Origin: Panulirus ornatus
Taxonomy: Eukaryota > Arthropoda > Malacostraca > Decapoda > Palinuridae
Length of the DNA: 64,000 bases
Assembly (NCBI RefSeq): GCF_036320965.1
Contig: NC_092290.1
Span: 1,399,420-1,463,419 of the forward strand
Direction of reading: 5' to 3'
Shown here: positions 17,861 through 62,770 of the stretch, one piece after another
Position numbering within the stretch: the stretch's first letter is position 1
How the letters are laid out: each line of letters begins with the position of its first letter
Translations under genes and position numbers: made by a program
Notes under the pieces: model-generated
Seen by the model: the letters and a program-made list of their open reading frames with translations, nothing else
Told to the model about the DNA's origin: nothing
Database searches by the model: none

Positions 17861-17983
17861 CAGCATCCCCCCCCCCCTCCCCCACCTCTTCCCTCCGGCA
17901 CCAGTCTATAGGGTCAAAATCAATACTTAGCCAAACCCCCCCCCCCCCCTTGTTCCCCATCTACGCTAGCTGCTTTAATATAC

Positions 17984-18512
17984 AGACCCGACCAACCATC
18001 AGGCGTGACCCACTGACCCGACCAACCATCAGCCGTGACCCACTGACCCGACCAACCATCAGCCGTGACCCACTGACCCGACCAACCATCAGCCGTGACC
18101 CGCTGACCCGACCAACCACCAGCCGTGACCCGCTGACCCGACCAACCACCAGCCGTGACCCGCTGACCCGACTAACCACCAGCCGTGACCCACAGACCCG
18201 ACCAACCTCCAGCCGTGACCCACTGACCCGACCCACCACCAGCCGTGACCCACTGACCCGACAAGCCTCCAGCCGTGACCCACTGACCCGACCAACCACC
18301 AGCCGTGACAAGCTGACCCGACCAACCACCAGCCGTGACCCGCTGACCCGACCAACCACCAGCCGTGACCCGCTGACCCGACCAACCACCAGCCGTGACC
18401 CGCTGACCCGACCAACCACCAGCCGTGACCCGCTGACCCGACCAACCACCAGCCGTGACCCGCTGACCCGACCAACCACTAGCCGTGAACCAGTCACCCG
18501 ACTAGCCACTTG
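17984..18512. repeat. 30-bp minisatellite, about seventeen copies
   Basis: Unit ACCCGACCAACCACCAGCCG followed by TGACCCGCTG, repeated without length change. As 30 is divisible by three, one plus frame (TRPTTSRDPL repeat) and two minus frames stay open for over 120 codons. Edge units are the most diverged; the last five central units are identical. Confidence 0.9.
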
Positions 18513-18519
18513 ACTCACT

Positions 18520-22046: not shown

Positions 22047-22267
22047 AGAGGAAGCAGCCCAGTTATCATGATGACAGTATATTACAGCAACATGTACCGG
22101 TCACACAGCGACACAGAACCGAACTGTACTCATGAAGGAGGGGAATAGGGAAGTAATCTGTCAAGGGTCCAAGCAGTTAGGGAAGAAAATTGAAGCGGCT
22201 TGATCAGTAATGCTATATGCTGATGGTTGGTCATTATCTCTAAATTACGGCTGGCAACCCTGGCCCT

Positions 22268-22497
22268 ACCCTCTGGTACGGTACAGGAACAAGGTACACT
22301 GCAGGTACCAGCCTCTGGTACGGTACAGGAACAAGGTACACTGCAGGTACCAGCCTCTGGTACGGTACAGGAACAAGGTACACTGCAGGTACCAGCCTCT
22401 GGTACGGTACAGGAACAAGGTACACTGCAGGTACCAGCCTCTGGTACGGTACAGGAACAAGGTACACTGCAGGTACCAACCTCTGGTGGGGTACAGG
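22268..22497. repeat. 42-bp tandem repeat, five and a half copies
   Basis: Units hold CTCTGGTACGGTACAGGAAC, AAGGTACACTGCAGG and TACCAG; the central ones are identical. All three plus frames and some minus frames remain open because 42 is divisible by three. Confidence 0.88.
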
Positions 22498-22978
22498 AAC
22501 AAGCAGTTTCCTACAGAAAATATAACAGCCCTTGTTCATGTTGTCAGTTACGACGTAATATATTTTATTCAATATTCTTCCATTTTTTAAATCAAGATAA
22601 ACTTTGAGAGACACAAGACCGTTATGATCGAGAGAATTTTTCCTTGCCAGTTCCCACCAAGACGGTGTAGTGCCAGCGAGCCAGCCACTGCTGACCCCAC
22701 TACCCTCTCCTCCTATATTGGCTGGACGAGGCCATAATCCTCTGTAGCCCGACAATCAAGCTAAAAACCACCATCTTCTAAAAGCTATTTACCTTCAATG
22801 TTAACTCTTTATGGCTCAGTCAAGAACCCAGTCATTGGATGACGTAAAAACTACAGACATAACAGACGAGCGTCCAACTCTTGTTGCAGAACTGGAATGA
22901 GACAACACCAGCAGGTGTTGTTACATACTTGCTGAGCACAAGGCTGGGTGTTCTACACTCGTGGGGCTCCGTCTCTTG

Positions 22979-36341: not shown

Positions 36342-39300
36342 CTACAATTTGCGTTTCTCAGCCATCTTTGCCGCAGCTTTTTTCTTCATCAAGTGCATTC
36401 TTCTCTCAGCAGAAATCATAGAATTCGATGGTGCAGAGGATTTCCCAGACGATGATGATGATGATGAGGATGATGATGATGATGATGATGAAAGTGAAGA
36501 CTTGCTGCTACCATTGCTATTTCCACCACTGTTATTGGAACCTGCAAAATGAAAACCACTGCTTTAGACAGAATACCAACTATCATAAAAAATGCACTCA
36601 TCTAAATCTATTTTGCTTTCCTCATCACATCAGTTACATCGGTAGCCATAACTTACTAAAACCATGCCAACAAAAAATTCTAACTGCTTCTGCTATCTAC
36701 TCACCAAATTTAGTACCTTAAAAATGCATTCAAATGAAAATTACATTGGTTATTTACCTAAGTTCCTTCCCGAGGCAGAAGAAAGGTTGGTAAATGGTGA
36801 TGGACGAGAAAGACCAAGCCCCTTGGTTGGTGAAGGTGTGGGGCGAGTGTGTGATCCACCTGATTTCCCTCCACTTGACAAACTAGGTATGCCTCCACCT
36901 CCAACTCCCCGGGTACCACTCATGTTGCCACTTCCAGATGTGTTAACCATTGCAGTCTGCAGATCAAATGTAATGGCATGTTGAAGAGTTAATACAAAAA
37001 CAAAATTTGGGATACAAGCTGGAGAATGCAAGGTTATCCTATTTCCATATCACTCAATTCCACTTAATATGTCTGCCTTACCACTACCAATTTTCTCTGA
37101 CATGCACAAAAGGGGTGGCTGGGAGGGCTTAATAAGTCCTTGCCTTTCTAGCCTTATGTTCAAAGTGCCCTTTTTATCTCAAGAGGCACTGCCCTTTTAT
37201 TATTCTAGCATAGCAATGCCTATCATACTTTCTCCACTCCTTATGCGTAACCACACTCAATTCTTTTTATCTAATCTATATTGCCAAATATCAGTTCTTT
37301 CATACATTGTGACAAAAAATTTTTTAAGGCTCTAATAAAAGACAAAAATCCTTGTCAAGGTCTAGCGTGTAATGAAACTAAATACTGACTAAAGAATGAG
37401 AAGAAAGGAGAAAATAAGAATAAAACTCTGAGGTAACAATCCTGAGGTAAGAATCCTGTCTTCAAAAAAAGACAGGTCACAGCTTTAACAAAATACAAGA
37501 GGAGATACAGGCTTCCAAAGTTTAACAGTGTAGGAAAAGAAACAACACAACAGCACCTCCTGTAAAGGGACAAGGACACCTAATTTCCTGAGGTAGACTT
37601 GATACCCCTACATATAATTCTAATAAAAAAAATCATATCAATGAAAAATTTCCTACATTGCCAATACCTGCTTTTTAAGAGTCTTTGTACACTTAGCACA
37701 GTACCACACAAGACGAGGATCATTGACATCTTGGTCAGTAACAGGTGGTTTGTGACACTCTTGATGGTATAAAGAATGGCATTCCTGACATTCCACCAGT
37801 CGATTACGTGGAGAGACTTCAAAACTCCTGTGAAATGGAAGAATTTTACTAATATAAAATCAATCTAATTATTTAACTGATGATGGGCTTTTACTATCCA
37901 CATACAGCACCGTGTAATGAGAAAGAAACCACCTAAAATTACTTTCATTAAACATGTTAAAATACATACGTCATATCCATAAAGTAAGACTTTTGGAAAT
38001 TCTGTCCCATTACCCTTGTAACTACATAATTTTATACTAATATCATATCAAAAGAAGAAAATGTCATAATGTGTCCAACTCACCAACCCTTGATGAAACC
38101 ATAGCTTGAATACCACATTTTGAAATATAAATTCATCATTCTAATATTGTACTGTTACAAGAGCTTTTAAAGACAGCAAATCCCCTACTCACTTCTCCAC
38201 ACTTTCATACTATGGACACAAACACAGAACAATTCAGAGTTTTCAAACTAATAGTTACAGAAGCATATAAAAATTTCTACTGACAGAAAATATTATAAGG
38301 AATTCTCAAGTGTTCTATGGGTCAACCCTTATTTCAATATACATGACACTGCAAATATTTCCTGCATTATCAAATATAACCCCCCTCTCTTCATGAGATA
38401 AAATGGTTATATATCTTTCAAAATTTCCATAAACACTTAAACTAAGCCTTTGCAACAAAAATCCTCACTCAGCAGTTTCCTGAGCTCTTACTTTGAGAAA
38501 GAAAAATAAAGAAAGGCTTGCTTGCTACTCTTGCTTCTCTTAGTCATCTTCACCAACATGCAAGAGATATGCAGGTACTGTCCTCTTCCCTTATCCACAT
38601 TGGTATTTCTGATTCTGGAGTACAACACAGGCTACAAAGGGTATATTTAGGACTGAAGTGGAAAGTTATAAAAATTAGCGGAAAGTTATAAAAATTAAGT
38701 AATGTCAGGGACAACTACAGAGGACAAACAAAATGTCAAGCTTATGATAATAAATGATAATGGAAGAAAATGATCTGGAAATATAACTACCTAATGAGAA
38801 AGAAAGCAACACCAAAGAATGAGATTTAACAGTCTGAGTGAAGATAACAAAAAATAGATTAGAAAATGAAAAAATATTATCTTTCTATCTATATCTCTGA
38901 TGCCTGTTCCTAAATGGAACTCTCTCAAGGGGGTGGCCACAGCAGTAGGGTCTCCATGACTTGTGAACTCCAGTGCTGCTTCTTAGCTTTTAGATTCTTA
39001 CCCTTAACAGGCCACTGGCAGTGGGCAACCCTAGCACAGTGTTTGCTGAGGCTCCTACCTAATGTTCCTACCTACTACTTTTATCTACTGTTTCTACCTA
39101 ATGTTCCTGCCTAAGTGCTCCTACATACTGCTTCTATCTAATCCTCCTGCCATTTTGCCAAAAGGTAGGGCCAGCAGATAGTGCTCACCACAGGAAAATC
39201 TAGATACAAAGAATGAGCTGTGTGAGTACAGTGTTGTCAAGTGCTATGTATGACAAGGAGAGAATGTCTCTTTGTGGACAGAATGCCAGTAGTCCACATG

Positions 39301-40257
39301 TGAGTGAGGCAGAAAGAAAAGACAATTACCTGGTCAGCAGAGTGCAGCCCGACAACCAGTGAAGTGATTACTTTGCAGCCGTCACTTACCCTCCTGATAC
39401 CAGCAGGTATACTGCCTATTCCCAGAGGAAACCACGATCTCTTCACACAAAGGAACAAAATAAACAACCATACAGAAAAGAAAATCACTAACTTGCAAAC
39501 TGTGCAGTTGACTTCATCCATAATTTCCATGGCGAGATCATTCATCTCTGTGTCAGAGTCACTCTCATCAGACTTACGGCTCCGAGATGAACTTTCTGAT
39601 TTAATTGATGGAGTTGGAGAAGGGGTGTGGGACTTGAATGCACTTGGGGAATCTAAACGTGGCCTCTTGGGCATCAGCATCTCATCATCACGCATCTACA
39701 ATAAAAGAGACAGTATCCCTTGAATGCATGCTCAACAATCATGTCATTATCTTTCTTACACTTAAACATTATTCCAATGTATTGATGCAATTACTATTCA
39801 CTCGGTACTACATCTTACACTCAGTTTTCTTTCTATATTCTTGTTGTCTTCTCTCTTGGAAAAGGAGACTGGAATGGGACTACCAGGTTTTGATCTTGGA
39901 ATCGGGGATTCTCGGCGAAGACTGAATGGATCCTGTTTGAGATTAATGCAACTACAGTACAACAATATTTATCATTATGACAATAATTTCACAAATATAT
40001 ACATTGCAATAAATACATAAATACATCTGTTTACTGATACATAATCTCTAGTCTGTATCAGGAAAAAAGTCAACTGAAAGCCAATTATCTATAGTTTTAC
40101 ATGCCACTACCTTGCTCATAGATGGTATAGTCTTTCCCTGTCGTTGCCTGACAACTTCATCCACCAAAGCCTTCAGCTGATCTACAGAGTCCCGGTTTCT
40201 TGAGTGGAGGAGGCGCAACCCACGCCGGAACATAGGATCTAGCTCCAAATTAGCCAT
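36342..40257 (-). CDS. INTS12: Integrator complex subunit 12 (PHD finger protein), six coding exons
   Basis: Coding exons in transcript order are 40257-40111, 39932-39819, 39695-39493, 37827-37668, 36956-36758 and 36541-36342; every junction is GT-AG and phases join without a break, giving 340 residues (human 462, Drosophila about 330). The N-terminus ([20 protein letters not shown]) matches the conserved INTS12 N-terminal segment, which in the family binds INTS1. Residues 88-140 are Ser/Pro/acidic. A C4HC3 PHD finger spans about residues 151-201 (C151, C154, C168, C171, H176, C179, C198, C201), with the diagnostic [11 protein letters not shown] and [11 protein letters not shown]; an intron splits it after the second cysteine. 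Then come Gly/Ser-rich sequence, a serine run coded by a TCA/TCG repeat, and a basic tail ([15 protein letters not shown]) as in other INTS12 proteins. The complex works in the nucleus on snRNA 3'-end cleavage and promoter-proximal termination. Family identity is firm. The exon 39932-39819 rests on phase and splice sites only. Confidence 0.93.
38885..39180. repeat. Dispersed repeat, longer copy (INTS12 intron)
   Basis: The stretch TCTGATGCCTGTTCCTAA, GTGGCCACAGCAGTAGGGTC and ACTTGTGAACTCCAGTGCTG recurs in order at 58895-59075. The right part also holds short CCTACCTAATGTTCCTACCT-type subrepeats. Confidence 0.55.
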
Positions 40258-44875: not shown

Positions 44876-47800
44876 CTAATTGGAGTCTCTGGACTTGTAC
44901 AACGTTAGCAGCGGCTCCAACCACTAGAAGAATAAACAAGTGAATTCATAATGAAAACTTTCATGGGAAGAAAAAGTACTACCACTCTTGGCAAAGTTAA
45001 CCATACTCATTTTCGCCATGCCAAAACAAGTGAGTTTCATGACTCAAGTCACCATCAGTAACACTTTGACTCACCCAATAAGGAATCGGGTAGAAAAACT
45101 CATCATCCTGAAGGATCTCCAGCAGATCTAAACCGGCGCCTTGATCGATCTGCAATCATAAATGTGTACCAGTTTACTGTGACTCCAAACAGTTGAGAAA
45201 GAGGGAGGGTAATGAATGGGCCTTGCGACACGGGAACACACTGAAATACCTAAAGGCGGTACATGAATGGCTTGGATGTAGAGCGGGATGGGGTAGGGGT
45301 AGGATTAAATTGTAGACGGCAAATACAATTTTTGCGAGCCCAGTATTCTGTGCTAGCAGGTGGTGGTGGTGGTGAAGATTTCCTAAAGATGGCAATGATA
45401 AGAGCAATAATGATAAAAAACTGCCAAAGTAATTCGAAAACCTTTATCAAAGGTTTATTTCTCTCACTCAAGTTAACATTCTAGGCTACGTTTAAACAGG
45501 AACAAACATGGAAGTTAGCCGGGCCTCGGCAGGAATAACAAGGGAATGATACAACCAAATGATATAAACATTTCAAGGTCTTTCTAAAACACACACTCAC
45601 ACATATAAACACTGCTGCACAGCCTGATGGTCACACACACACACACAGCCACATCTATATCCACATTTACACCTATACAGCCACATCTACACCCACTACT
45701 CACCAGAGTCTGGACGATACACTGGCCGAGCAGAATGTGGCGAGCTAGGCTGTTGGTGCCGCCGAAGGGCAAGTTGTTGCCATAGGTAGGGGGCTCAACT
45801 CGCTGGATCTATGGGAGACCAAGGCCAAGCATGCAAAATTACCTACATTGAATGATCTCAGAATATAGTTTACGGGACGATCACAGAACATAATGAGTTC
45901 CCTGAAGAAGATAATACAATCTTCCATACAACTGGTGACGGGAGCGCACCTTGGATCCTGCCACTAACGTAGCTCACCTCGTTATATTCGTCGTCTTCCT
46001 GATCATAGTCTTCGTATCGAAAGAGAGCATCCAGGTCGTCATCGTCGTCCTCCTGATCTTTGTCGTCTTCGTCAGAACTCAAGATCTCCAGTCGCTGCAC
46101 CTCAGACCTCGTACTCTCCTCCTCGAATTCAATCAGACAGGTGGACGCGTTATTGGCTACCATTGCCTGTATGGAGGAAAATACAAATTACCTATATAGT
46201 TTTAAAGAAGCAAATGTATACTGTAAATAACGCCAAGAAATATAAATACTTTATCAAAATTACAAAGGCTAAGAACTCTGTGGAGCAAAGCCTTTGTGAA
46301 AGATGAATAAAAAACACATCACATGATAAAAAGTTGCCTCTGTAAGTGTGGTTGGCCTAAGGACCATCTCCCTCTTAGCCCAGTTTATAACTCGTTGTAA
46401 ATGTTGCCACAGTAAGCGTATAGTTTGCTACTGCATCAACGGTCAGAAGAAACGTTCGTGTTACGAGGCATCGGGCATCTCTCCACCAAAGTTTGGTTAC
46501 TGTAGAACCAAGCGGGCAACGAGCAGACCTGATGACAAAGCGACTCCCATGGTTCCCTGACTCTGGATGCCCATAGAGGAATCCTGCGCAGTTAGCGGCT
46601 CACCTGTACTCTACGGTGAAGCCGGTAAGGAACCTACCTGGACTTTAGGGATGGCGAGAATTGCGTCCTGGGCCCCGATGCCCAGCATGGTAGAGCCGCC
46701 TCCCCTTAAGAGCTTGGAGAGGACCACGGCCTTCACTGAGCTGCCTGCCTCCCGCGTGAACAGCTTCTCTCGCTGTAGGGAACAGAAAAAGTAATTCCGA
46801 CGATTTACTGAACAGAGAGAGAGAGAGAGAGGGGGGGGGGGGGTGGCTGGCATCACAACTAACATCAAAGAAGAGGAAAACGAGGCTTTTTCTCTTGTCT
46901 TTCATGTGCAAAGTGGTGTATGAGATGATGGTGTCCACTCTAGCGGAACTATCATCCACTGACCACATCACTGCTAATGTCTCATTGACGACTCTGGCAT
47001 TGTCTCACCTCTGTAAAACTCTATTGCATTCCCGTAAGTAAAGCGCGTAATAATGTTGATGAAAGGTGAATCTATATTTTTGAGCACGAACGTACGACCC
47101 ATGGCTACCACTGCTTGGTATTTGTCCTAACCTTTAAGGGTCAGGCAGCTGTACCCATGGGTCATAAGGTCGTGTGGAACGGTTTCGGACTCTTGCCATA
47201 AGTAGGGACTATCATCGACGGGGCCACATCAAGAAGTCTAAACTATCAGGAAGATGGATGATAGATTTTTCCTTAAAGTTGTGGTACTTGACTTTGACCA
47301 TAAGGAAGAAACCTGGCAAAGTATGTCGGAGTACGCTGACCCTCCAGCCCCCAAGGAAAGTGTTACGCAGGTGGCACTGGCTCCGAGGCACCTGGGAAGG
47401 GGGTATCGTGGTACAAGGTACAAGGCAGATGACAATGACTTGGGATACCAAAGGGTACTTCAAGCAGGTGGCACTGAACTAAAGGCACCCGGGAAAGTAT
47501 TAGGTCAGTGCCACCGACTATGAGGCATATAGAAAGATCTAAGGTAATTTATCCTGATTTTGTAAGTCCCGGAAAGTAGCAGGTAAGTCACTCACCCTGA
47601 GGTAGCGGGACATTTCCCTCATCCTCCTACGGAGGCAGTTGGGCAGGAGGTTGGCGTTGGTGTGGTTGTGGTGGAGATGTGACGGTCCGTGTTGCATCCG
47701 GCCTGGACCTGTGGCGGATACACCAGAACACAACAGTTGCAATGTATGAGGCAAAACGGAGACTTGAGGTCTTTTATCGGCATTGTAGGATCCAGATGTT

Positions 47801-49868
47801 TCTTCCACCAGGAGTGGACGACACAAAGTTATCATGACTAAGCATTACTAACCGCGTGCATGCGTCTTTCTCTCAAGATGTGTGGCGATGCCGAGATCAT
47901 TTTTCGTTTTAAGTCTGTCTTACCGGGTAGAAAGTGCCAAATTACCAAAATGAAAGACAAATGTGAAAGTTTGTCACGTATAAAGCACAGCTACTACGCA
48001 CACCAGTACTGGTCAGGATTTCAGGGAACAGATGAAGGTGAAACACACCTCAAATATTAGTTGAAAAGTTTCAAGGAATGGAAAGGTTCTGAGCAAGACG
48101 GTGTTATGGAAAATACTGAGGAGAGAGAAGGTAGGAAACCTTTTCTTCTACCAGAACATCACCGGCGCAGATGACACAACCTGACGATACATTACACAGT
48201 TTGGTGTCGGTAGTCCGTGTCACAAACTGACAAACTTTCACTGAAAGGCAAAGTTCGATTCCAGCCGACTTCAGCCATTACACTAAGAAATACCCTTAGT
48301 AAGGATAAAAAAAAAAAATGGTATAGTTTGCTGATATTATTATCTTGAAGGTTTCCGGTGTTGTACCTCGTTCAGGAGAAACTTAACATATAAGAAGAGG
48401 TCACGAATTAGGATTCTGTCCTTAGGAAAGGAAAACGATACTCGAAAAGCAGGACATGATCTGGTTTTGGTATGCAACCACAAAAATCTAATGGGCGTGA
48501 AGGGAACGACTAGGGTCCAGTGCCTGTCTGGGAAACGACTAGGAGAAGGTGGAAGGGAACGACTTTGGTTGAGGATGACAATATCGTTGTCACGTTGGTT
48601 TTGTCCGGGGACTTAGGACCAGGTGACTCACCTGCTGGCGAGGGACGCCTAGGACCAGGGGACTCACCTACTGATGGGGCAGGCCTAGGACCAGGGGACT
48701 CACCTGTCAGGCGATAGTCAGGGTGAGGCACGGAGCACTCAGCGACTTCGGGAGGCAGGTGCTGGCCCACACACTTCCTCACCTTGTGTGGGTGCTGCCG
48801 AAGGAAGCACGGATCTTTAAAGGAGCCACAATATCATCCCAGGTATTCGTTGACGTGTGCTCAGACAAAATAATTGTTAAGCAAGAAATCAAGAGTAAAT
48901 ATCTGAATGCATTTAACTTGATATATGACACAGTGACAAGTGCACAGTAAACCCAGGATTCGCTCAGCACAAACCTTGCGGATGTCTCCAGCCTTCGTGA
49001 AGCAGTCAAGACACAGTTTCTCCTCCACACTGTCCACGATCAGGCCACACAGGTCCTCTTTGGTCGGGATGCTTCCCCCGACCTGCATCAACTACCACAA
49101 GGCCACAGCATTACAGAAAATCAAAGTCAAAACAAAAGGATTTCTTAAAAGCATATTAGACTACTCAGTTAAAGAACCGTTGTAAGATTAACAGAAAAAG
49201 TTTACCAGTCATAAACAAAACAAAGTTTTCTAATCAACCTTTAACAGAAGACAATAAATCAGGGATAACATTACTCAGAATATAGGGGGGGTCCTGCCTT
49301 CCCTCCAATACACATGATTAACATTGTAAAGATTATGGTCAAAGTTGCTGCGACGTAAAAATCTCAGTTACGTCAGGTTACAGAACTGCACAACACTTGA
49401 TATTTTGGAAGAACTTTTGTTTTTTATTACCTTTTGAAGAACTTTATATACATAGTTTAGTACGAACAGCACCGATGCCGCCTGGTTGCCCGAGGGAGAG
49501 TTTGGGAGAACCTAAAAATAACTTGCGGCACAAGACGCTGCTCCCAGTGTCTGGCGTAACACAGGATACGGCATACAGCGTGCAGTGTGCAAAGTGGCCG
49601 CTCTTGACACTAGCTAACATTAACTTGGTGAAGGGGGGGGGGGATCGCTTCAAACCTTCACACTAACTCACACTTACTCTTACTTTATAAGGAAACTCTT
49701 CAAAACAATGCAAGTCCACTATCAGGAAGGAAACTTTAATAATTCAACCGGTCATTGTGTATGCATACAAACGTAATGAAATAGTAAATATTAACCAAGA
49801 TCACACAATGCACCCACCTGTGCCAGGAAAGAAGCTATAACGAGCAGGAGTAGCGTGGCACACTTCAT
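44876..49868 (-). CDS. Uncharacterised secreted cysteine-containing protein with acidic tract (paralogue A)
   Basis: Nine coding exons: 49868-49818, 49082-48975, 48794-48704, 47708-47596, 46772-46638, 46166-45978, 45808-45704, 45149-45075, 44923-44876. All are GT-AG with matching phases; 915 nt, 304 residues. Exon 1 is exactly a signal peptide (MKCATLLLLVIASFLAQ). Exon 2 has the cysteine motif LCLDCFTKAGD. Exons 3-4 carry KC, EC and NC cysteines, and a His/Asn-rich part. Exon 5 (REKLFTREAG...) is 135 nt. Exon 6 is strongly acidic, with runs of Asp/Glu and acidic-tyrosine pairs. Exon 7 holds YGNNLPFGG and one cysteine; exon 8 ends in YPIPYW. I do not recognise the family. Exon by exon it matches the divergently oriented gene at 54364-61826, which confirms it as a coding gene. 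The mature product would be extracellular; its role is unknown. The exon 3 acceptor is the least certain boundary. Confidence 0.85.
46817..46842. repeat. Short (GA)n followed by a G run
   Basis: Intronic in paralogue A, about 45 bases from the exon 5 acceptor; on the coding strand it is a C run then CT repeat and may strengthen the pyrimidine tract. Confidence 0.85.
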
Positions 49869-52259
49869 GTTGGCACTTTCTGGAGGATTGTGGCACCGTA
49901 AGTCAGGAGTGGTACACCATACGTAATGCAGGATTACCACATCAACAGTGGGCCTTCAAGACCTGTGGTGACACTTCCCCACTAGATAACGCCAACTGTT
50001 GGGCAAAACATAACTTTATTGTCATCTGACAATCTGTAATTACTTTGAATTTCTTTTTAGATATCATCAGTCTTGTAATGTGTACTCCTGGGTAACTGAG
50101 AACATTTGCCTATACAGGTTTCTGTGCATGGCTGTTAACCCTAGCACTGCAGTCACTGTGAACGACTGTAACCCCAGCACCACGGTCACTGTGCAGCACT
50201 GTAACCCACAGAGATTGCGAAAGGCTTCCCAACACTAGGAAAGCGCCTGTCCGAGGAGCCTGTATCAAGCATGACTGACAGCGACCACCACGACTCCTGT
50301 CCTAATACGTCACCCTAACCTCACCTGGTCAACAAAGGCCTCGCCAGTCCTAACTCATGTCATTTCATCATTACTTAACAGTTTGCATGTGAGAGCATGT
50401 GATAACTTGCCCTTTGCTGCAGACATCGGCAGAGGGCGAGGTAATCACGGGCGCCTAAGACGAGGTGGCAAGACCTCGGTAAGGTGTCTTCTGCTGGGAA
50501 AGTGTTAGTTTTGCCTCGTGGCATTAAGCAGGGCAAACGTCACCACTGCTTCACAAATTCTCTTTTGTCTTGTGTGGCTCCTGTGACTAAACGAACCTAA
50601 AGTTTCTGTGGTTGTAAGAACTTACTGTGGTAATACACGAGCCTTCTGTTTGCCAGGGAAGCACCAGCACCCGTCCACCTACCTGTAGCAGGTTAGCCAC
50701 CTGGATGGGTGGTGTAGCGGCAGGCGATAGTGTCGCATCTAAGGAAGGTGAGCCACTGTCCACACCAGCAACTCTCCGCCTCCCTGACACCCCTCCTCCA
50801 CCCCCACCAAAACCCACGCGCCCCCGTGGCACTCACTAGTCATCGCCGTCATTAAACTCGAGATTTTTCTAACAATATTCTATTAATAATAATGTTGGCT
50901 GCGAGACCTTCCTCTCCTTGGTCACCTTTCGCTCCACTTCAAGATGTCCATCTTTTTTCCCCATCACTGCTTCCCTCCATCTTGTTTTCCCACCTTCCAT
51001 TTACCCTCCTTACCCCTCCTCCTACAAATCTCCCTCTTCCCTCGTCTTCTGTTCACAAGCCTCCACCTCCTCAGACGCTCCCATTGATGACCCCCCGCCC
51101 CACCTTCCTGTTGATGCTAGCCCTCGAGCGTTCCCATTCATATCCTTACACCTCCCGTTGACCTCATCCCATCCCTACGAGCACTTCCGTTGCTATACTG
51201 TTGCCTCGACGTTGACACCTGTGGTGGCCTGGGTGACTCCCCAGAGCCACAGTGCTGGTCCACTCCACTAGTTTAATCTTTCACGGAGTCGATATGGACA
51301 CTGATGGAGACTGGCTGGCCTTCAGAATGGTAGTTTCCCAAGGGGGAAAAATCGCTTTTGATCCACCTGAAGACATGTCCCATTTTTCTTAACTCTTGCT
51401 TACCATACAATCACACAGAGATTTCATTCAAATATCTTTTATACCAGATAAAGGAAAATCCATGTTGGTCTAGCTTAAAAGCATTCTACCAATTTTGTGA
51501 CCGGACAAAATACATATTTCTGTTATTCATGGAGAAGTAATTCATTAAGGTTCATCATTTTCAGCCTGATTTATGAAATATCGAGGTATTTCTGACATTA
51601 GCCCAACAAGTGTGGGAAGTGAACATATGTGGAGTCAAACTTGAGTGTACACATGCAGAACTAATCATCACATATTTTTTCCCATCACCGGACATATGAT
51701 GGTATATCTATAAATCTGTGCCTGTAACAGTGTCATCATGTGTAATATATGTCTCTTATCCTTCTTCTATGATCCGACAGTCAGAGGTTTTCCTTCGAAA
51801 CTCTTACATTTAATGATATGAAACTTCGGTCTTGATTATACATCAATTACAAATTCTTGTAATAGTTTAAGATGTTCTACTGACTTGAGAGTAGTATAAC
51901 TGACGCATCCCTCGCTTGTTCCTGCCCTCCTCTCCTGATTTAGTTACTTCTGGCCCTCATGTGAGTGTGTGTATGTGTGTGTGTGTGTAATTTAAGATTT
52001 ACGTAAACCATTTGGTCTGTCACTTCTGACGCGACGTGGAATGCATTCATCAGCCACTTGTACCACCCGGTACTGGCCGCACATCCTGACGCCAATTAAT
52101 TGAGGACATGATATACCGTCCAAGGTCCACAACTTTGGACAGAACCGTCAATACTGATCGGTATATAGCGTTAGTGAGGTATCCTGCTCTGTCTACAGCG
52201 ATAGCTGCGTGCACCACATTACTCGGGGGTCCATGGTTTATTAACTCAGATCTGTGATG

Positions 52260-52328
52260 TCTTAGTATTTTATTCCTGACAAATATCACCTTAGTCTTAG
52301 TATTTTATTCCTGACAAATATCACCTTA
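52260..52328. repeat. 35-bp perfect direct duplication
   Basis: The unit beginning TCTTAGTATTTTATTCCTGA occurs at 52260 and again at 52295. Confidence 0.85.
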
Positions 52329-53114
52329 TTCCCTGCAAGATTAGTCATGCACTCAATGCAATGTAAACATATTTGTACACGCATTTCAAACTCATATCCA
52401 CTTAAAAGACACATACAGGTTCCTACTGCACACAAACATATGAACACACACACATACACAATCACCTCACATGTTCGTAATACACTGTCACTGATTCACT
52501 ACACATAATAAAGCAGTAATGAAGGACAGTAAAGCCGAGGGTAACGTAGTGGTTTGTGAAATTACTCACCTGCTGGCCACAAGGCGTCATGGAATTGTCT
52601 CCCGTTATTATGAAAATATTAATCAGACGAGTTATAAATTGCTGAAAGACAACATATCAGTCGTTAAACCTTTCATTCGTGTTCAATGTTCGTTCCTCTT
52701 TGATCATAAAACGATGCTGTTCAACAAAGTTCGCTTCTTAACACCTTCCACATCCACTCGCGGTCTCGAAGGTTAACAACGATCAGGGTGTACGCTAAAA
52801 GAGGTTTGGACGTTATTCATCTGTTATTTATACTTGTATACATTTCATATCACAGGTGAGGAGATCATGTTGGTGATCAAAGCTGGTATCGAAAGATCAT
52901 CTCAGGTTGAATTTATACTTTCAAGAAAAATAATTACTTTTTGATTTCGATACAATAATAAAGTAGCACATTCAAAAGGCATGTTATAAAGCGCTCACAT
53001 ATATAAATGAATGTATTTGAGTAATTACCTAACTATGGAACGGGGAAGTTCACATTGTGCAGACATCTATACTAATAATCAGTCTCTTGCACTTCTATAT
53101 ACTGTATGCAGTCA

Positions 53115-53224
53115 CACTGTGTGTGTGTGTGTGTGTTTACTGACAAGATTGCTGTCCACTTACCCTACCTTTCAGCCACGTGACCCCCCCCCCCCCCCAC
53201 TCCACAAAATCTCTCCACATACAT

Positions 53225-53254
<30 letters not shown>
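53115..53254. repeat. TG array, C run and AC array cluster
   Basis: TG array 53115-53137, C run about 53186-53199, AC array 53228-53254. Confidence 0.85.
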
Positions 53255-53258
<4 letters not shown>

Positions 53259-53523
53259 GCATACGTGTCGACACATCGTTTCACAGCTTCACCTGTGACA
53301 CTCCCGCCACCTGAGAGGCAATAATAGTCACACTTGAGCGGCTAATTAACGACTTATTATGGGCACCACTCAGGACGACAACACTTGATACTCTAAAGGA
53401 TCACCGGCCAAACTAAAGTGACATTTCACAATTTGTATGCAATTACCCAACTTTCTGCCTCTCACGAAGATTCCGAGCTTGGAACGGGGGACCAAGGACG
53501 CATGAGACAAGTGGCTCACCGAA

Positions 53524-53525
<2 letters not shown>

Positions 53526-53599
<74 letters not shown>
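53526..53599. repeat. (GA)n microsatellite
   Basis: About 37 units, roughly 0.8 kb upstream of the paralogue B start. Confidence 0.95.
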
Positions 53600-53602
<3 letters not shown>

Positions 53603-54179
53603 TCTGGACAGGGCGTCAGCAGATTATACAAGTGGAGAGGCAGTGGTCGGGGAGTGATAGGTGAGGGTACCTACTCCCATATCCAGTTAGCGACAGTATT
53701 TGGGTCAACATAAACAAGTCTAGTGGTAATGTGAGGAGTGAGCGTGATCAGGTTAGATAAGTCTGGACATATTCCATGATACCTCACTTGGTGCAGATGG
53801 GCATACTTCCCGGGGTAAGGTCTGGTCTACGGCAGGACTGACGAGGGTGGATGTCTACAGCGAAAATTTTGAATGAAGATGAAAACAAAGATTCTACAGA
53901 GGAAAATTTACATACCAATTTTGTCATCTAAAAGATTATCAGGGAGATCTACAGGATGAACTATGTGAAGGAATATGTCGTGTAAGGAGACGAGTTCTAG
54001 TCGACCTGATTATTCTGGAAGGCTGCACAGTGATGGAACACTACATTTGAACAGATAAACATGTCATCACTGGGCCTCACCCTAGGTGAACGAAATATTG
54101 GCGTAACTTGAATGACACTTAATGGTTTTGCACATTACTAGATAATTAGTGGTTGATGACGTGTTCACGTTAGGTCGGG

Positions 54180-54363
54180 GGCGGCGGCAGAGGGGAGGCG
54201 AAATCTGGGAGGCGAGATAAGGGGGTTGGAGGGGGACCAGGTGTGGAGCAGGTGGTGGCACCTGAGGACCCACGGTGCCTCATCCACCTACCTGCTCCAG
54301 CCAAACCTTCTGCTCACTCAGCAACACCACAAACGAGACACGCACCAAGCGGAGAGCTTCACG
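54180..54363 (+). promoter_or_regulatory. Probable promoter/leader of paralogue B with E-box cluster
   Basis: A G-rich stretch runs into three E-box-like hexamers (CAGGTG, CAGGTG, CACCTG) at about 54238-54269, with a GATA motif (AGATAAG) near 54216. A C/A-rich leader without an in-frame stop-start conflict follows to the ATG. No TATA box is evident. Assignment as promoter is by position and is not proven. Confidence 0.35.
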
Positions 54364-54978
54364 ATGCACCAGTCACTGTTTCTGCTGCCGCTCCTGCTGG
54401 CGGCGTACACGGTGAGATATAGCGACCCTGGTTTACCAGTTTAGTTTTCAGTCAGTAGTTTCACTTGAACTGATCACTCATGGTGTACAGCTCAGCATAA
54501 ATAATACATCTTTTACTTCAGCCAGAGCGTTAGCCTGTCGCATACATAAGCAGCCTTTCTCGCTGCAACTTTAATGGCCCTGGGAGAGTACGTGTTCCGT
54601 CAGACGTACCCATTTCCCTTGCCTTGATTCCTCCGAGGGGGCCATCTTTCTCAAGTATTACCAGACAGCTTTAGTTGGTATCATTACGTGGCAACTGCCC
54701 CTTGTTGGTCACATCTGGCACAACTTAACGATAAACAATAATCATGTGGCAAATTGCTAAGTGATATTCATTTACCAAATACTTGATATCAATTTGTTTG
54801 GCTTCTAGATAACACACAATTCAGGAATCTTCACGGTTATAAAGAAATACGCATCGGTTATACAGTCTCAGGCAGTGGTCGCACTAGCTCAAAGAAAGAG
54901 AAAATACAGACTGAAGAAAAATATATGTTAATCTCAAATGTGCTCAGCAATCAGATCAATGTAATTTTACAAGTTGGA

Positions 54979-55066
<88 letters not shown>

Positions 55067-58000
55067 TCGCTTGATACTTTCCTTCGCTATCCGCATTGCA
55101 GTGCTTTTTTTTATTTCAAGTCCATCATTTCCCTGCTCCTACGTATCTCAGTATATAATGTATGCGTGTATGTGGAAATCTTTGGCTTTCCAAGAGTGGA
55201 AAAAAGGAAAAAACACTATCGTACTTCAGTCAACCAGCGGATGGAGGAACTGCGGCTACTGTAGAGATGAACATCACATATATCCCGACACATCTAATAG
55301 CTATATATACATATAACCCACGGACGGCACAGCTCTAATGAGACGCGTCGAATTATGTAACTTTAATTCAACTGAGATTAGAATTTGATACATTACGTAA
55401 ATGTATGCCTACTTACAACTTATATTTCATAAACTTACTCTCTTTACAAAAATTAATAATCACCAACACACTTAAGAGTGGACAAAAAGAATGACTAATT
55501 GGTCTATCCACTGAACAGGTAGGGGGTGTGAGGTCCAGTGCCGGCCAGGAAAGGTCTGCGAGCCGTGCCCAGGATGTGGTTGAATGGCCTAAGACGGGGA
55601 TATCCCTGTGCCAGAGGCTGCAGGAGCCGCACTTTCGCCAGAAATGCCTTCAGTGCTTCACCAAAGCCTGGGATACTATGAAAGAGGTAGGCCAGAGGGC
55701 CATTTTATGCCACAGGCTACACTACTCCACTTTACATACATGTTAGTAATCACATTTCTTTGGGACAGGGACAGGCAAAACCTATACCAAAATTAGAGGC
55801 CAAGCATAACCTACGCCCACTATTGAAGCCAAACACAACCTACATCCGACCTTGAGATCAAGCACAACCTCTAGTCACCCTTAAAGTCAAGCAAAACCCA
55901 CACCCACCCTTGGAGCTGAACACAAACCACATCCAGTCTTGGGGCCAAGCACAACACAGCCACACCCTTGGTGCCAAAAGAAATGCACATATACATTGTT
56001 TTAATTCAACTCTTCTCTAAATTTCATCACCTAACAGAGATTTATGTATTTCATCATCTAAATGACAATGTTTAATAGGGTGTTGTGTACAAACAGTGGT
56101 TTGTGTATACATTTTCTGACCATATTGATATGACAGTGTGAAGAGGACACACTGAGGATTGGTGGTGTTGGATTATGGGTCACCTTATCACCTCCAGTGA
56201 CCATTCCACATGATGACCAGGCCCTTAGGCTGTTTAATACCTTTGAGATTGAGCCTCCTCTCTACCAACAGTTTGGCAGACGCAAGTTTTACTTACCCAT
56301 CACAACAACAATGCTTCCCGGACAACCTTCCTTTACCCTCAAGGTAACAACAATGCATGCTCTTCTGACCTACTGAACATGTAATTGTTGCCTTACTGTA
56401 CTGCTAGCCCTCTGACCTCGTACTTACTGTCCTCCAACTTCTTATGTAAAAACAGTTTTACAATCTTTGTCTCATCTTTCCTTTACCACACATATCTCCT
56501 CCCCCTCCCTCTTCTAAATGACAACACAGTCAGGTTTTGCACATTCAATAAGTACTAGTTTTTCTGGTTGGGTCAATATCGGTATGGTGCGTCTGGTGCT
56601 GCTCATCTGTGACAACGACAGGTCAAGGAATGTGCGAGGACGTGGCTGCCCAGAGTCGTAGCCAAGTGTGCTATCTATGCCAACACCAACTCCTTTAACT
56701 ACTGCATCACCCGACAAACAAGTAACTTGGAGCACATCACCAAGGTGAGTGAACCCCTATCATTGCTCGACTCCTTCAAGTTTCGTGTGCTAAGACATGA
56801 TGAGTTTATACAAACACTTTATGGAACAGAATATCTATTCTATCATACTTTCCACCTCTCTTAGTAAGTCGAAGATTCTAGTAACTTTGATGATACTATA
56901 ATTTTTTGGTGATGATTCTATTTACCATCTTCCTCCATAATCATTCCTCCTCTCTCCAGACTAACCATACAACCATTCGTTACTTCTCTGTGCCAGGAAA
57001 CTCTCCAAATGTAAAAACTATCATTTGAGTGAAATAAGAAACATTTGGTGTATGTTTAACATAAAGGCTTTTACTTATTCCATGCATTTCTTTTTAGAAT
57101 TCAATTATTGCATTTATACCAGTATACTATTGTATCTCAGTTTCCTGTCCACCTGAGTCTGGCTCTAGTAAGCAGTGAGTGATACTGTAGGTGCTGCCAT
57201 TCTTGGGTCAAGGTGGTAATCAAGGCCATCTGTTTTACTGACCAACCCATAATGGTGGATGAACAGCTGGGTTGTGTGTGGATCAACCAGGATTTGAACC
57301 TACGCACTCGGCCCTGGGCACCCTGTGAATGTTAGGGTCAGGGACGCTAACCAGTGCACCACAGAGTTCATCTGTGTGCTTGACCCACGGCAATCATACC
57401 CAATCTATCACCCTCATACATGACTTGTCACTCATGTACTTAACCTACTACTTGTATAACTTGTAAACAAAGTATTTACCTTTTCACTCGGTACCTTAAC
57501 CTGTCAAACATGTACCCCATTTGGCACTCAAGTGCTCATCAGATTTGTACATAACTTGTGTATCTTTCCCTCTTCCTACTGTAACCCACCAGAGGGCTGA
57601 GCTCCTGTACAAGAAAGGTGGTGCTGTGCTGAAAAAAGTAAAAGACTCAAAGGTTATTAAGGATGGGCCTAGCGCTGTCTTCTCCATCATGGCCCAAGAG
57701 CTTTTCATCAATACTAACCCACTCAAGGTAAGTCCTGCTCTGATTTCCTACATCTAATTTGGTAGCATCATCAGCAGCTGATATGGTGGCATCACGTATA
57801 TTTAGCAAGGTGTACTAACTTCTGTCTGGGATGTCAAATGGTCAGTACGGTGGCAACATGCATTGGTAGTAAAGTTATATCACTTACATTCAGCTTGGTA
57901 ACATCACTTGTGAGGTCTTGTAGCAGGAATGATCGCACTTATAATGAGCAATGATGTCACATGTGGTAGTAAGGTGATCATCACCTTTGGCTAAAATAGT

Positions 58001-60027
58001 AAAGTCACTTGTGGATGGCCTAGTAACATCAGTAGCTTTTATGGCATTCCTTGCGGCTGTTGCCATGACATCACTTATTCTAATTTGGATATGTTATCCA
58101 TGTCTGAAAAAGATACATCATTGCAATTAATGTTATGTTGCTTGTAGCTGAAATAGTAATATGAATTGTGTATCTTGCAAGTTTGAGAGGAAATATTTAA
58201 TAATATAGAAAATATATAGAAGGAAATGCTTGAATGTAATACAAATATAGTGGCAGTAACAAAATGCTGGGCTGGATACATTTCTACAGAATACATTGAA
58301 AGCCCCAGACAATGACTGCTTCGAGAGGTTCCAGGTCGACTCAGCCAATGAGCACTGGCACCTCCAAAACTTCAAAATACCTAAACCCAAGGCCAATAAC
58401 AGAACCAAGATCCAGGCCCTTTTAAAAACAAGGACTACTTTCAATCAACTGGGAGGTTAGTAGTTAGATAACTTTCATAAATTTACCATTTAGTCTAATA
58501 TCTTCTAGTGAATGATGCATAACTCGGGTCTTCCTAGAGGCATGTACACCGGAAGGGTACACTCTTCTAGTATAAGTGCAACATACATCCATTTATCATA
58601 CTAATCCCCCCAAAAAAATGGAAAGCATATTTCTACTGATCTGGTGCTGTACATTTCTGCTTATTACACTCTGTACATACTTTTTTTCAAAAGTCAAAAG
58701 TGATTTTGAGCCTCTTGTTTGGATATGCATGCCTATCTTGATGTTCTATTTAAAAAAATTCACATATAATACACAAATGTTCTTGAGGATGTGTTTATGT
58801 ATTACATAAGACACTTTTAAGCAAGAAACTGCTTTAATTGTCACTGTCTGCATGTCACAAATAAAGACGTCTCTAGTACATATCAGGAGTGCCACTTCTA
58901 TATCTCTTATGCCTGTTGCCACCTAGAACTCCTCAAACGGATGGCCACAGCAATACAGTCTCCATAATTAGTGAACTCCGTTGCAACAACCAATTCTCTT
59001 TTACAATTAACTCAATCACTTGGTGCGAGTTTTAGAGAGGGAGGTCCAGCACCAAAAATTCCTGCACTAAGGCCTGACAAACATGACATTTAGCAATAAA
59101 GCTGAAGATAATGCATCTGGAATGGTATTCCATCTGATAACACTGCAATGTAAACTGTCTTTTAGTGAATGTCCTTATGTGCCAAATAAATATGCACTTG
59201 TTACTCTCAACTTGTCAGGTTGTGCAGTGTTCCTTTGCAGACTAAAAGCTGCTGCACAGTCTTGTGAATATTTGGACAACATGTAGCCAAAAGGGTTAAA
59301 ATGAGTACATTTACAAACAAGAGCAAGTTTCTTAAAGATACCTTTCTTAGCAATATGCTTTGTGGTACTACACCAAACAGCTAAATGCTCTTTTTAAATT
59401 AATCCTTCATGTACTGAAGGGGTTTTGCATAATGCTCAGGCCTCTTACATAACAATGAGTTGAACAGCTTACACAGTATGATGATGAGCTATGGTTTCTA
59501 AAACAGGACTGGTAATTTAGTTAACACAAAAGTAACCTATCTAATTCTGTAGTATGCTTTCTTATCAAAAGTAAATGGTGTCTAACCCAACATCAGGGTA
59601 TGTTGCACACCAGAAGGGCTATTTCACAAAGGTAGGATATCCCGTATATTAGAGAGCTTTCTAGTGCAACAATACATATCCAGGAGGTGAGGTATTTTCT
59701 GTTAAGACAAGCAGATTGATATTATAGCCAAATGCCTAAAACCAGTTTGATGGCTCATGATTTATATATGAACCAATCTACTTGTATCCTTCCTTAAACA
59801 GCAGGTAGATGACAAGCTCCTATCTTATACAAATGCCACATATCTTGTATAGCAGTAAGTGTCTAATACAAATTAAAAAAATTGTTTAACCTTTCCATAC
59901 TTGTGCAGCAAGGAACCTCGTATATGAGTATGGGATGATGGGCCACAAGATGCCGTTCCATGGCATAGGGCCTCTTGCTGTAGACATTCTGAAGGGCATT
60001 TGTCTTATGCATTATTTGGTGAGTACA

Positions 60028-60114
<87 letters not shown>

Positions 60115-61826
60115 TCGTTCAATTTTAAGATTTTCCCTTTGCAAAACTTCATTCATGCACCCAGTTTTCTTTAAAAAAAAAAAAAAAGTTGAACCTGTCT
60201 AAATGTAAGAAATTTTATTTTGAAAATGACATGCCCATCCAGCTTTCACTCACACTAATACAAGCAAAGCAATTAAAACCTAAAAGAACTTTCTTGCAAC
60301 AGGCTTTAACAATATATCAAATGTTGGCATAAAACACTTAGGCCCAGTTGCAATACAAGCACTGACAGAAAACTTCAATTAATCCTGGCTACAAACATAA
60401 TCCCTAACTTCTGGAAAGTTGCTAACATAATGCCACTACTAAAGCCCTTCAAACCATCCCACTTCTCTCCTTTTACTGTCTTATATCAATTTGGTCTTCA
60501 GTATCCAAACTGTGAGAAACTGATCTACAACACAGTGAAGCAAAATATCCCACTCACTTACACAACATGACCTCACACCCAACCAATTCACAATGCACAC
60601 TGACCTTAAAACACATCCTAGATGGATTCAACCAAACAAAATCCCATCCTCCACAATACTAGTGGCAACAGACAAAAACAAAGCATCTGCCATTCGCTTG
60701 ACATATCTTATACATGATAATTAAACACTACCCTCCACAATGAAAAAAGTGGTTGACCAATATCCTGTGTGCTGCCATGCCAAAATCACTCACAATGGCT
60801 TTACCTCTAAAACCCTTAAACCCTACAAAGGAGTTCCCCAAGGAATGGTTCTTTCTCCATCCCTTTTCAATCTCCTCCTATATGACCTCCCATTACCTCT
60901 GGCAATACATAACATGAAGGTTCTCTCATATGCAGACAACCTCACAATTAAATCAAAACATTCTGATACAACTGTTGCAACATCAAACATCAAACTACAT
61001 TACAGAAAATGGAACAAAGGCTCACCCAGAACAGAATGTCTACATCTACACAGAAGTCTTCCCTTCTCTTTTAACCCCAGACAGACATGAATCCAACTTA
61101 CACCTCCAATCACCTTCAGTGAACAATCACTCCAACTGTCCAAGCACACTCAAACTATTCAACCTATCCCCCTTAGTTTTACTCAGCCAAAATATGAAGG
61201 TTATGCTCATCAAACATAGAACCTATACCTCTCTTCTCACACTGATTACATCCATGCATATTCAGACAACCCAATCTGAGTCTTTGGAGGATACTTCATT
61301 TGCCTCTTTCTTCTGTTCGTTTCTGGATACTGATAATATACTAATACAGTGTTCACTTCTTACAGGAGGGTACTAAGAAACTGCAGACATTTGTTGATAT
61401 GTCACTCTCTTCCCTACATCCTATACCAGCCTGGGTAAGTTATGTCCTTTGTAACCCTTCTTTCACCTATTCTGCTGTTTTTTAATCAAACTCTCTTCCA
61501 CTCATCTGTAGCCTCCCCTATTCCTTTTTTTCCCTTCCAAACCCATATCCTTAGACCTCATCTAAATCTTACTCCTTTTATAATCTAAATTACTGAACTA
61601 GGTAAATTAGTTCCAGTCTTGGCAGCAAAGTTTCTTAAATACAGTTTATTTTCTTTTGGACATGAATATGATTTCATGTCTTAAGATCTACTTAATAAGA
61701 GCAAGACTTTCTTTTCCATATTCCATTGGGATGATTCTACTTTTAATCCTCTTATAGGTGGACAAGGTCTATGGCCCAAGTGGTATACCTCCTCGAGCCC
61801 TAAGGAAGCGTGCCTCTGAGCACTGA
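54364..61826 (+). CDS. Uncharacterised secreted cysteine-containing protein with basic segment (paralogue B)
   Basis: Nine coding exons: 54364-54411, 55519-55686, 56137-56343, 56622-56744, 57593-57727, 58290-58455, 59909-60018, 61387-61434, 61758-61826; 1074 nt, 357 residues. Exon 1 is a signal peptide (MHQSLFLLPLLLAAYT). Exon 2 has KCLQCFTKAWD, matching LCLDCFTKAGD of paralogue A. Exon 3 (69 residues, starting CEEDTLRIGG) has no counterpart there. Exon 4 (VKECARTWLP...) matches two exons of A. Exon 5 is 135 nt in both genes. Exon 6 keeps the cysteine (DCFERF) but is Lys/Arg-rich where A is acidic. Exon 7 has YGMMGHKMPFHG; exon 8 ends HPIPAW; the last exon ends in RALRKRASEH. Exon 8 is awkward: the better acceptor at 61366 puts the conserved end out of frame, so I used the one at 61386. 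The family is unknown. The product should be secreted. Confidence 0.85.
54983..55065. repeat. (TA)n microsatellite
   Basis: Intron 1 of paralogue B. Confidence 0.95.
55790..55985. repeat. Imperfect tandem repeat in intron 2 of paralogue B
   Basis: About five units of 35-40 bases built on GCCAAGCACAACCTACA and CACCCTTGG, diverged from each other. Confidence 0.65.
57200..57366 (-). mobile_element. tRNA-derived SINE in intron 4 of paralogue B
   Basis: The minus strand has an A box TGGTGCACTGGTTAGCG (57361-57345) and a B box GGTTCAAATCC (57300-57290), spaced as in a tRNA. The shared GCTGTTCATCC body follows. It is antisense to the host gene and is the best-preserved pol III promoter pair in the window. 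Confidence 0.68.
58895..59075. repeat. Dispersed repeat, shorter copy (paralogue B intron)
   Basis: It shares ATGCCTGTTGCCACCTAGAA, GATGGCCACAGCAATACAGT and TTAGTGAACTCCGTTGC with the copy at 38885. The subrepeat part is missing. The unit is not assigned to a known class. Confidence 0.55.
60031..60110. repeat. (GA)n microsatellite next to a splice donor
   Basis: Starts 12 bases after the exon 7 donor of paralogue B. Confidence 0.95.
60340..61300 (+). mobile_element. Jockey-like LINE reverse transcriptase remnant in intron 7 of paralogue B
   Basis: Translated pieces in order are FWKVANIMPLLKPFKPSHF, GVPQGMVLSPSLFNLL (about 60830) and VLSYADNLTIKS (about 60927), then LTPDRHESNLH. These are RT motifs of jockey-type elements. 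The catalytic YADD is YADN, and stops and frameshifts interrupt it. It lies between exon 7 and exon 8 in the same orientation as the gene. Confidence 0.75.
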
Positions 61827-62414
61827 TACCTTCTCACCTATTTTGTCTGACTAAAAACCCAAACCTTTCCTTCCCCTGAAAAGAATAACTTAGTGCAGCC
61901 AATCCCTAAGAAAGAATATTACTTTGGCCACTCTTGTGAGCTGTGTACATGTTACATGTGTCCTATCTCCAAGTCATGGATCTGAGGAACATTTGGCTAC
62001 TGCTTTCCCAGGTTTGTGTGTGAAGACTAGCCACTCAATGATCGACCATTATGGTATCGCATTCTTTCCTAGAACAGCTAAGATGTGAAATTCTCTTCCC
62101 CCTTTCATCTCTCCCTCCTGCTGTATAACATTTCTGCCTTAAGTCAGGTCAACAAACACCCATGGAGCCCTGATTAATTTCTGCATTGTTTCCCCTTAAT
62201 TTTTCCTTTAACCTGGGTCAGTATTTGATTGAGATATGCTTTGCCATGGGGGAAAAAGTGAACAAAAACAGAAGTTAAAGATATTAGAAAGATTCATTTT
62301 CTATTGCTGCATTTCTCCTTTCTAATGAGTATATCTAAGTTTGGTCTTTAGTATGCTTGCTGGTAACAAACACTTTGGTTCAGATGTTCCAGGAAAGCCT
62401 CAACAAGATCTCAT
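61827..62414 (+). other. Possible 3' UTR of paralogue B
   Basis: Follows the stop codon directly. No clear AATAAA lies close by; the first plus-strand AATAAAG seen is far downstream near 63225, so the transcript end is unknown. Confidence 0.3.
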
Positions 62415-62770
62415 CCACTGTGCTACCCAACACAGCACCATCAGCTTAATCTTCCTACAGGACGAACTTGGATATGCTCACAACCTTCACTAGAGCAGAA
62501 CATTGGTGCACCATGATATACACTGGTATTAGTATATATCATACAGTAATGAAGTGATGAGATATATTTGCACCCACCTACTAATCTCTATAAGAACCAT
62601 TGTACTACCTAAAAGAGCACCATCAGCTTAATTTTCCTGCAGGTTGAACTTGGATAAGTTCATAACCTTCCTTGGCACAGAACAATGGTGCATCATGACA
62701 TACACTAGTATAAATAAGTAATGGAGTGACAAGATATACTTGCACTCACCCGTTAATATCTGTAAAAAAG
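62415..62770. repeat. Tandem duplication of about 180 bp downstream of paralogue B
   Basis: AGCACCATCAGCTTAAT occurs at about 62434 and 62615. The following order (GAACTTGGATA, CATAACCTTC, AACAATGGTGCA, ATATACTTGCACTCACC) is kept in both copies with point differences. Confidence 0.75.

Follow-up and report, generated by a model that had tools for sequence, protein, structure and literature searches.

Introduction

Lineage-restricted families of secreted proteins in which one copy evolves fast are common in arthropods. The closest relatives of the two genes considered here are decapod database entries that bear the title "uncharacterized" or "hypothetical," such as Homarus americanus LOC121855108 and Scylla paramamosain LOC135103005. 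A looser likeness is that to the insect 27 kDa hemolymph glycoproteins, which we take to be the Pfam family DUF1397 and presume to be secreted, helical, and cysteine rich. The two genes, named A and B, lie head to head in a 64,000-nucleotide stretch of the Panulirus ornatus genome (contig NC_092290.1, positions 1,399,420 to 1,463,419), which is termed the window and provides all coordinates given below. They had been described in a first-pass annotation, based on the DNA letters and their open reading frames, as diverged secreted-protein paralogs. We consider it likely that A and B are head-to-head members of one secreted, all-helical, disulfide-bonded protein family, seen in decapods only, for which we propose a binding role. 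Our confidence is high as far as the family and the history of the pair are concerned, whereas an extracellular binding role in which A and B would have different partners, suggested by their charge, is a tentative proposal to which we assign a low probability.

Results

Similarity and layout of genes A and B

Gene A occupies 49868-44876 of the minus strand, gene B starts at 54364 of the plus strand, and both chains are intact when read from the window. Their start codons, at 49868 (-) and 54364 (+), are 4.5 kb apart and the genes point outward, in agreement with the layout reported initially. To compare the two proteins, we used A with a corrected exon 3 and B without a doubtful exon 3, and masking and composition adjustment were switched off. 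The local BLASTP alignment had a score of 65 bits (E value of 1e-16) with 23% identity over 264 columns. The Smith-Waterman score was 163, as compared to a mean of 32 (standard deviation of 4.8, maximum of 53) for 500 shuffles, corresponding to a z of ~27. Chance similarity or unrelatedness of the two proteins was thus ruled out, and the alignments, far above chance, show that A and B are paralogs. The mutual similarity had been taken as support for both gene models; this holds for the paralogy, but the exon chains need three corrections.

The features that the first-pass annotation had found to be common to both genes were largely retrieved. The first exon of each encodes a putative signal peptide, as judged by a hydrophobic N-terminal stretch with a mean hydropathy over 10 residues of 3.15 in A and 2.76 in B. 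The second exons start with VGG and carry the CLxCFTKA motif, and both chains contain a 135-nt exon (the fifth in the initial count), a YG..PFxG exon, and an exon ending in PIPxW. Eight cysteines occur in the same order in both proteins, and all of them align at ~23% identity. In contrast, the count of nine exons in each gene is probably wrong, because the database protein P0008 does not include B exon 3 (56137-56343) and the following B exon (56622-56744) matches A exons 3 and 4 together. Gene A probably has nine exons and gene B eight, and the equal numbers were a coincidence. The phase-1 intron between A exons 3 and 4, the only one of its kind in A, has no counterpart in B. The statement that exon phases agree almost throughout is correct for six of the seven comparable introns, the exception being intron 6/7 in front of the YG..P exon (of phase 0 in A but phase 1 in B), but it is weak evidence since nearly all introns are of phase 0.

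A search for a third family copy, in which six-frame open stretches of at least 12 residues were scanned with a family profile that itself contained P0008 and P0001, a close match to A described below, returned no further copy among the matches listed: all 12 above the inclusion threshold were exons of A or B. Likewise, among the best (longest) 25 of 32 repeat pairs, no inverted DNA repeat that might be a residue of the duplication was found between the genes, only simple repeats.

Decapod relatives of gene A

The query of the protein database with A returned seven proteins at E values of up to 1 (5.0e-114 to 3.2e-42). Four of these have a named source, and all four sources are decapods, namely, Petrolisthes, Homarus, Halocaridina, and Penaeus vannamei. 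A profile built from six sequences also matched seven proteins (E values of up to 10), which added Palaemon, Scylla, and Macrobrachium, whereas the query with the initial B chain, including its exon 3, matched P0008 only. Taken together, the searches provided 11 homologs, 8 of which have a named source; all 8 are from decapods and are titled "hypothetical" or "uncharacterized." These searches depend on shared five-residue words, and the profile search scored the 7,994 candidates that share most words, so that distant relatives may be missed. The nearest match to A was P0001, a protein of 189 residues from a 1,153-base contig with 96% identity, and no full-length Panulirus A protein turned up in the A query.

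The decapod proteins P0003, P0004, P0005, P0007, P0009, P0010, and P0011, along with P0001, P0002, and P0006, belong to the same family as A. They share with it the eight cysteine positions, an NxTNANxxPxC motif, a charged linker and, where the C terminus is present, mostly the PIPxW motif, which is PIPYW in A and PIPAW in B; Scylla (PVPAW) and Palaemon (AIPNM) deviate from it. As judged from these sequences, A is the spiny lobster ortholog of a widespread decapod protein present in shrimps, crabs, and lobsters. No B ortholog from another species was among the matches of the A, B, and profile searches, although A-type proteins were found there.

The family had been called unrecognized. This holds in the sense that no named family was matched, but homologs had already been deposited under uninformative titles. 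The family search proposed as a check of the initial reading thus provided decapod relatives, none of which ties A or B to a named family. The initial chains had no Pfam match at E values of up to 1 (B) or 5 (A). Among 10 relatives, including P0008, weak and scattered matches to six Pfam families were obtained at E values of up to 10, the best being zf-UBP_var (E value of 0.02 in two members), with the HMMER filters dropping most matches above 0.1. Sequences in the Protein Data Bank (PDB) included nothing convincing (best E values of 0.7 for A and 0.78 for the profile, none for B), and a fold search with a weak predicted structure returned no usable match and hence no name for the family. In viral contigs, P0002 matched eight pattern stretches, none of which is a relative. 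Five database identifiers and three short peptide strings were without mention in the papers searched, and no paper was found there that joins decapods, taxonomically restricted genes, and secreted proteins.

These results bear on the idea that the two genes are members of an established family of secreted proteins, the insect 27 kDa hemolymph glycoproteins being one example, and have diverged too far for this to be seen. The presumed general likeness to secreted, helical, cysteine-rich arthropod hemolymph proteins is in its favor. However, none of A, B, and the 10 relatives had a Pfam match to these glycoproteins at the above thresholds, which sets them apart, and no convincing relative was found among the PDB sequences. 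We therefore regard such a membership as quite improbable and retain the reading of an unnamed decapod family.

Cysteines, linker, and charge

An alignment of nine A-type proteins and B, which excluded P0001 (a fragment) and P0007 (a model with gaps), was used to analyze the conserved cysteines. Seven positions were cysteine in all 10 rows and the eighth in 8 rows, the other two being devoid of that segment. Seven of the cysteines precede a linker and one follows it. The whole-protein charge was determined for the same rows, which include one partial protein and a Petrolisthes protein with a spurious leader that was trimmed for the linker charges. All nine A-type proteins were acidic, with isoelectric points (pI) between 4.77 and 5.92 and net charges between -5 and -21, whereas B had a pI of 9.57 and a net charge of +16. 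The linker that separates the seventh and eighth cysteines accounts for most of this difference; its charge ranged from -3 to -22 in the nine A-type proteins (-22 in A) as compared to +5 in B. Furthermore, an NxT loop in front of the sixth cysteine, NHT in A, is missing from B, which has a single NRT motif elsewhere. Lacking the acidic linker, B is best described as a divergent paralog and not as a typical family member. Inspection by eye showed dibasic pairs in the linkers of some A-type proteins (for example, P0005 and P0006) and none in those of A or B; these pairs may be cleavage sites, but they are not conserved.

The predicted secondary structure was all helical for both the A-type protein P0002 and B. 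If the exported proteins, as their signal peptides suggest, pair their eight cysteines intramolecularly, the linker must be spanned by one of the bonds, given that seven cysteines lie before it and one after. The eighth cysteine would then probably tie the C-terminal helices back, making the linker a closed, exposed, flexible, and charged loop. We propose that this loop may act as a binding loop in the hemolymph or extracellular matrix; A could bind calcium or other cations in this way, or else a basic partner, and B a different, probably anionic one.

The acidic linkers can also be read in another manner, in that A-type proteins would be mineral or cuticle matrix proteins whose Asp/Glu-rich linker binds calcium, with B as a specialized partner. 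The negative linkers in all nine A-type proteins would fit such a role, as would the range of the family so far, since decapods calcify their cuticle (we presume an analogy to acidic cuticle proteins). However, the linker of the penaeid protein has a charge of only -3 and is rich in glycine and asparagine, and Pfam scans of A, B, and 10 relatives revealed no chitin-binding domain. We consider this alternative unlikely. Less probable still is a scenario in which A and B are coregulated from the shared 4.5-kb interval and the basic B binds the acidic linker of A, forming a two-part complex special to spiny lobsters.

Duplication and divergence

The annotation had proposed an inverted duplication followed by divergence. 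This remains the simplest history for the pair. In a tree of the 10 aligned proteins, the end branch of B was 9.11 changes per column, as compared to a median of 0.7, and the placement of such a row is unsure according to a warning of the method. When the tree was constrained to group A with B, its log-likelihood was 6.03 lower and the P value of the approximately unbiased test (p-AU) was 0.046; the grouping is thus marginally disfavored, with a very long B branch. Of the two copies, A is conserved and B very fast changing, being basic where the remaining proteins are acidic.

One reading of these trees is that the duplication predates the divergence between shrimps and the remaining decapods and that B orthologs elsewhere were lost or are beyond the reach of the searches. 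The midpoint-rooted tree places B outside all nine A-type proteins, including that of the penaeid, and the cost of forcing A and B together points in the same direction. On the other hand, the very long branch can drag B toward the root, and no B-like protein was found from Homarus, Penaeus, Scylla, Palaemon, or other sources, in which A-type proteins were detected. We rate an old duplication as a serious possibility, somewhat short of an even chance.

The long branch would also be compatible with B being a decaying or unexpressed copy, and so would the missing conserved loop and the fact that the only database match of B lies on a 23.8-Mb contig, with none from a short, transcript-like contig. 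However, the chain of B is open over 294 codons in eight exons, with donors that match 4 to 6 of the 6 consensus bases at the internal junctions, and the alignment of all eight cysteines at ~23% identity is hardly expected under drift. Decay of B is therefore very improbable, and we favor an intact, fast-evolving paralog.

Exon structure of gene A

Exon 1 (49818-49868, minus strand, as all exons of A) contains the start codon and the hydrophobic signal peptide MKCATLLLLVIASFLAQ. Exon 2 (48975-49082), reading from VGGSIPTKEDLCG to CLDCFTKAGDIRK, was matched by the family profile with an E value of 5.7e-12. The acceptor of exon 3 required correction: the exon, which begins with HPHKVRKCVGQHLPPEVAECSVPH, probably spans 48704-48794, starting 12 nt upstream of the acceptor at 48782 chosen initially and thereby adding the residues HPHK. 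This is based on the presence of residues at this site in all nine A-type database proteins that cover it (eight in one alignment plus P0007; HPEK in Scylla) and on the higher pyrimidine content of the acceptor at 48794 (0.71 versus 0.59). The profile score also rose from 440 to 458 bits with the longer exon, although this comparison is not independent, as the profile included the longer A model.

Exon 4 (47596-47708), from RMQHGPS to HHNHTNANLLPNCLRRRMREMSRYLR, carries the N-glycosylation motif NHT. It is followed by the 135-nt exon 5 (46638-46772), by exon 6 (45978-46166) with the seventh cysteine and the acidic linker, by exon 7 (45704-45808; YGNNLPFGGTNSLARHILLGQCIVQTL) with the eighth cysteine, and by exon 8 (45075-45149), which ends in PIPYW; exons 4 to 8 were all matched by the profile. 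Exon 9 (44876-44923) encodes WLEPLLTLYKSRDSN and the stop codon, and P0001 is identical there except for one residue. P0001 covers exons 5 to 8 as well and thus the five junctions from 4/5 to 8/9. The matching exons span ~2.7 kb of genomic DNA, and the 1,153-base contig of P0001 must therefore be spliced. P0001 was part of the profile with which the window exons, including exon 5, were scored. A Homarus record, isoform X6 (P0004), lacks the segment of exon 7 to within ~1 residue, which is independent support for the borders of that exon.

Exon structure of gene B

P0008, an uncharacterized Panulirus ornatus protein that is a database prediction, represents the same gene as B. It is identical to B over 273 residues but lacks exon 3 and has another last exon, so that most of the B chain proposed initially is backed, with the exception of these two parts. 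The exons in common, all on the plus strand, are exon 1 (54364-54411) with the start codon and signal peptide MHQSLFLLPLLLAAYT; exon 2 (55519-55686), which starts with VGGVRSS and continues through CQRL to CLQCFTKAWDTMKE; the exon equivalent to A exons 3 and 4 (56622-56744); the 135-nt counterpart of A exon 5 (57593-57727); the counterpart of A exon 6 (58290-58455), in which the linker is basic instead of acidic; that of A exon 7 (59909-60018; GHKMPFHGIGPLAVDILKGICLMHYL); and that of A exon 8 (61366-61434), ending in PIPAW. From exon 2 onward, these were matched by the family profile, the last one with an E value of 0.012, below the inclusion threshold. The intron 60018-61366 contains a reverse transcriptase fragment (60725-61087, plus strand; Pfam RVT_1, E value of 1.6e-10), a retroelement remnant.

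Exon 3, annotated at 56137-56343 on the plus strand, was rejected as unsupported. In addition to its absence from P0008, an AG..GT open stretch of at least its length occurred in 41.7% of 2,000 equal-length segments taken from the initial 44 kb of the window, and its inclusion lowered the profile score of B from 84.7 to 73.6 bits. The last exon was initially placed at 61758-61826 (VDKVYGPS to stop), whereas in P0008 it is located at 62384-62449 (MFQESLNKISSTVLPNTAPSA and stop). The two tails scored 84.7 and 82.9 bits, and the chain with neither scored 82.0 bits. Since the profile hardly separates them, both ends may be in use, the former as an alternative end.

Other features of the window

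The minus strand also carries, downstream of A, a PHD-finger gene (finger at 37668-37826; best PDB match, 1wev, with an E value of 1.1e-24). It extends from a start at 40257 to an end at 36342, the latter judged by eye, and is presumably that of Integrator complex subunit 12. It is a useful synteny anchor. A tandem repeat region at 17961-18513 encodes a repeated peptide on both strands (for example, RDPLTRPTTS) and is not a likely gene. A further short array of tandem repeats (22240-22535) can be read through in several frames.

Discussion

The data presented here point to what is probably an unnamed decapod family of secreted, helical, disulfide-bonded proteins with one fast-evolving, inverted paralog. 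Several observations weigh against this reading or parts of it. The number of cysteines is not constant, since in the part counted Halocaridina has 9, Palaemon and Macrobrachium 10 each, and Petrolisthes 12 (its long extra leader included), whereas Homarus isoform X6 has 7. The weakly acidic penaeid linker (-3) fits poorly with a charged binding loop. The structure models are weak, with a mean predicted local distance difference test (pLDDT) score of 63.6 and a predicted template modeling (pTM) score of 0.43 for P0002 and corresponding values of 55.0 and 0.32 for B, so that the tie between the domains depends on cysteine counting. Finally, the restriction to decapods is based on word-based searches, on 8 of 11 proteins with a named source, and on the profile candidates scored.

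The case also illustrates that reading exon chains directly from raw sequence can uncover genuine genes and yet introduce an exon that is open to doubt. The analysis points to an orphan family of presumably secreted decapod proteins that has no Pfam match, in which a conserved copy and a runaway copy of opposite charge lie side by side in the spiny lobster genome. Because the A gene is carried by farmed or fished decapods, including shrimp, crab, and lobster, the role that it may play in these animals is open to experimental testing.

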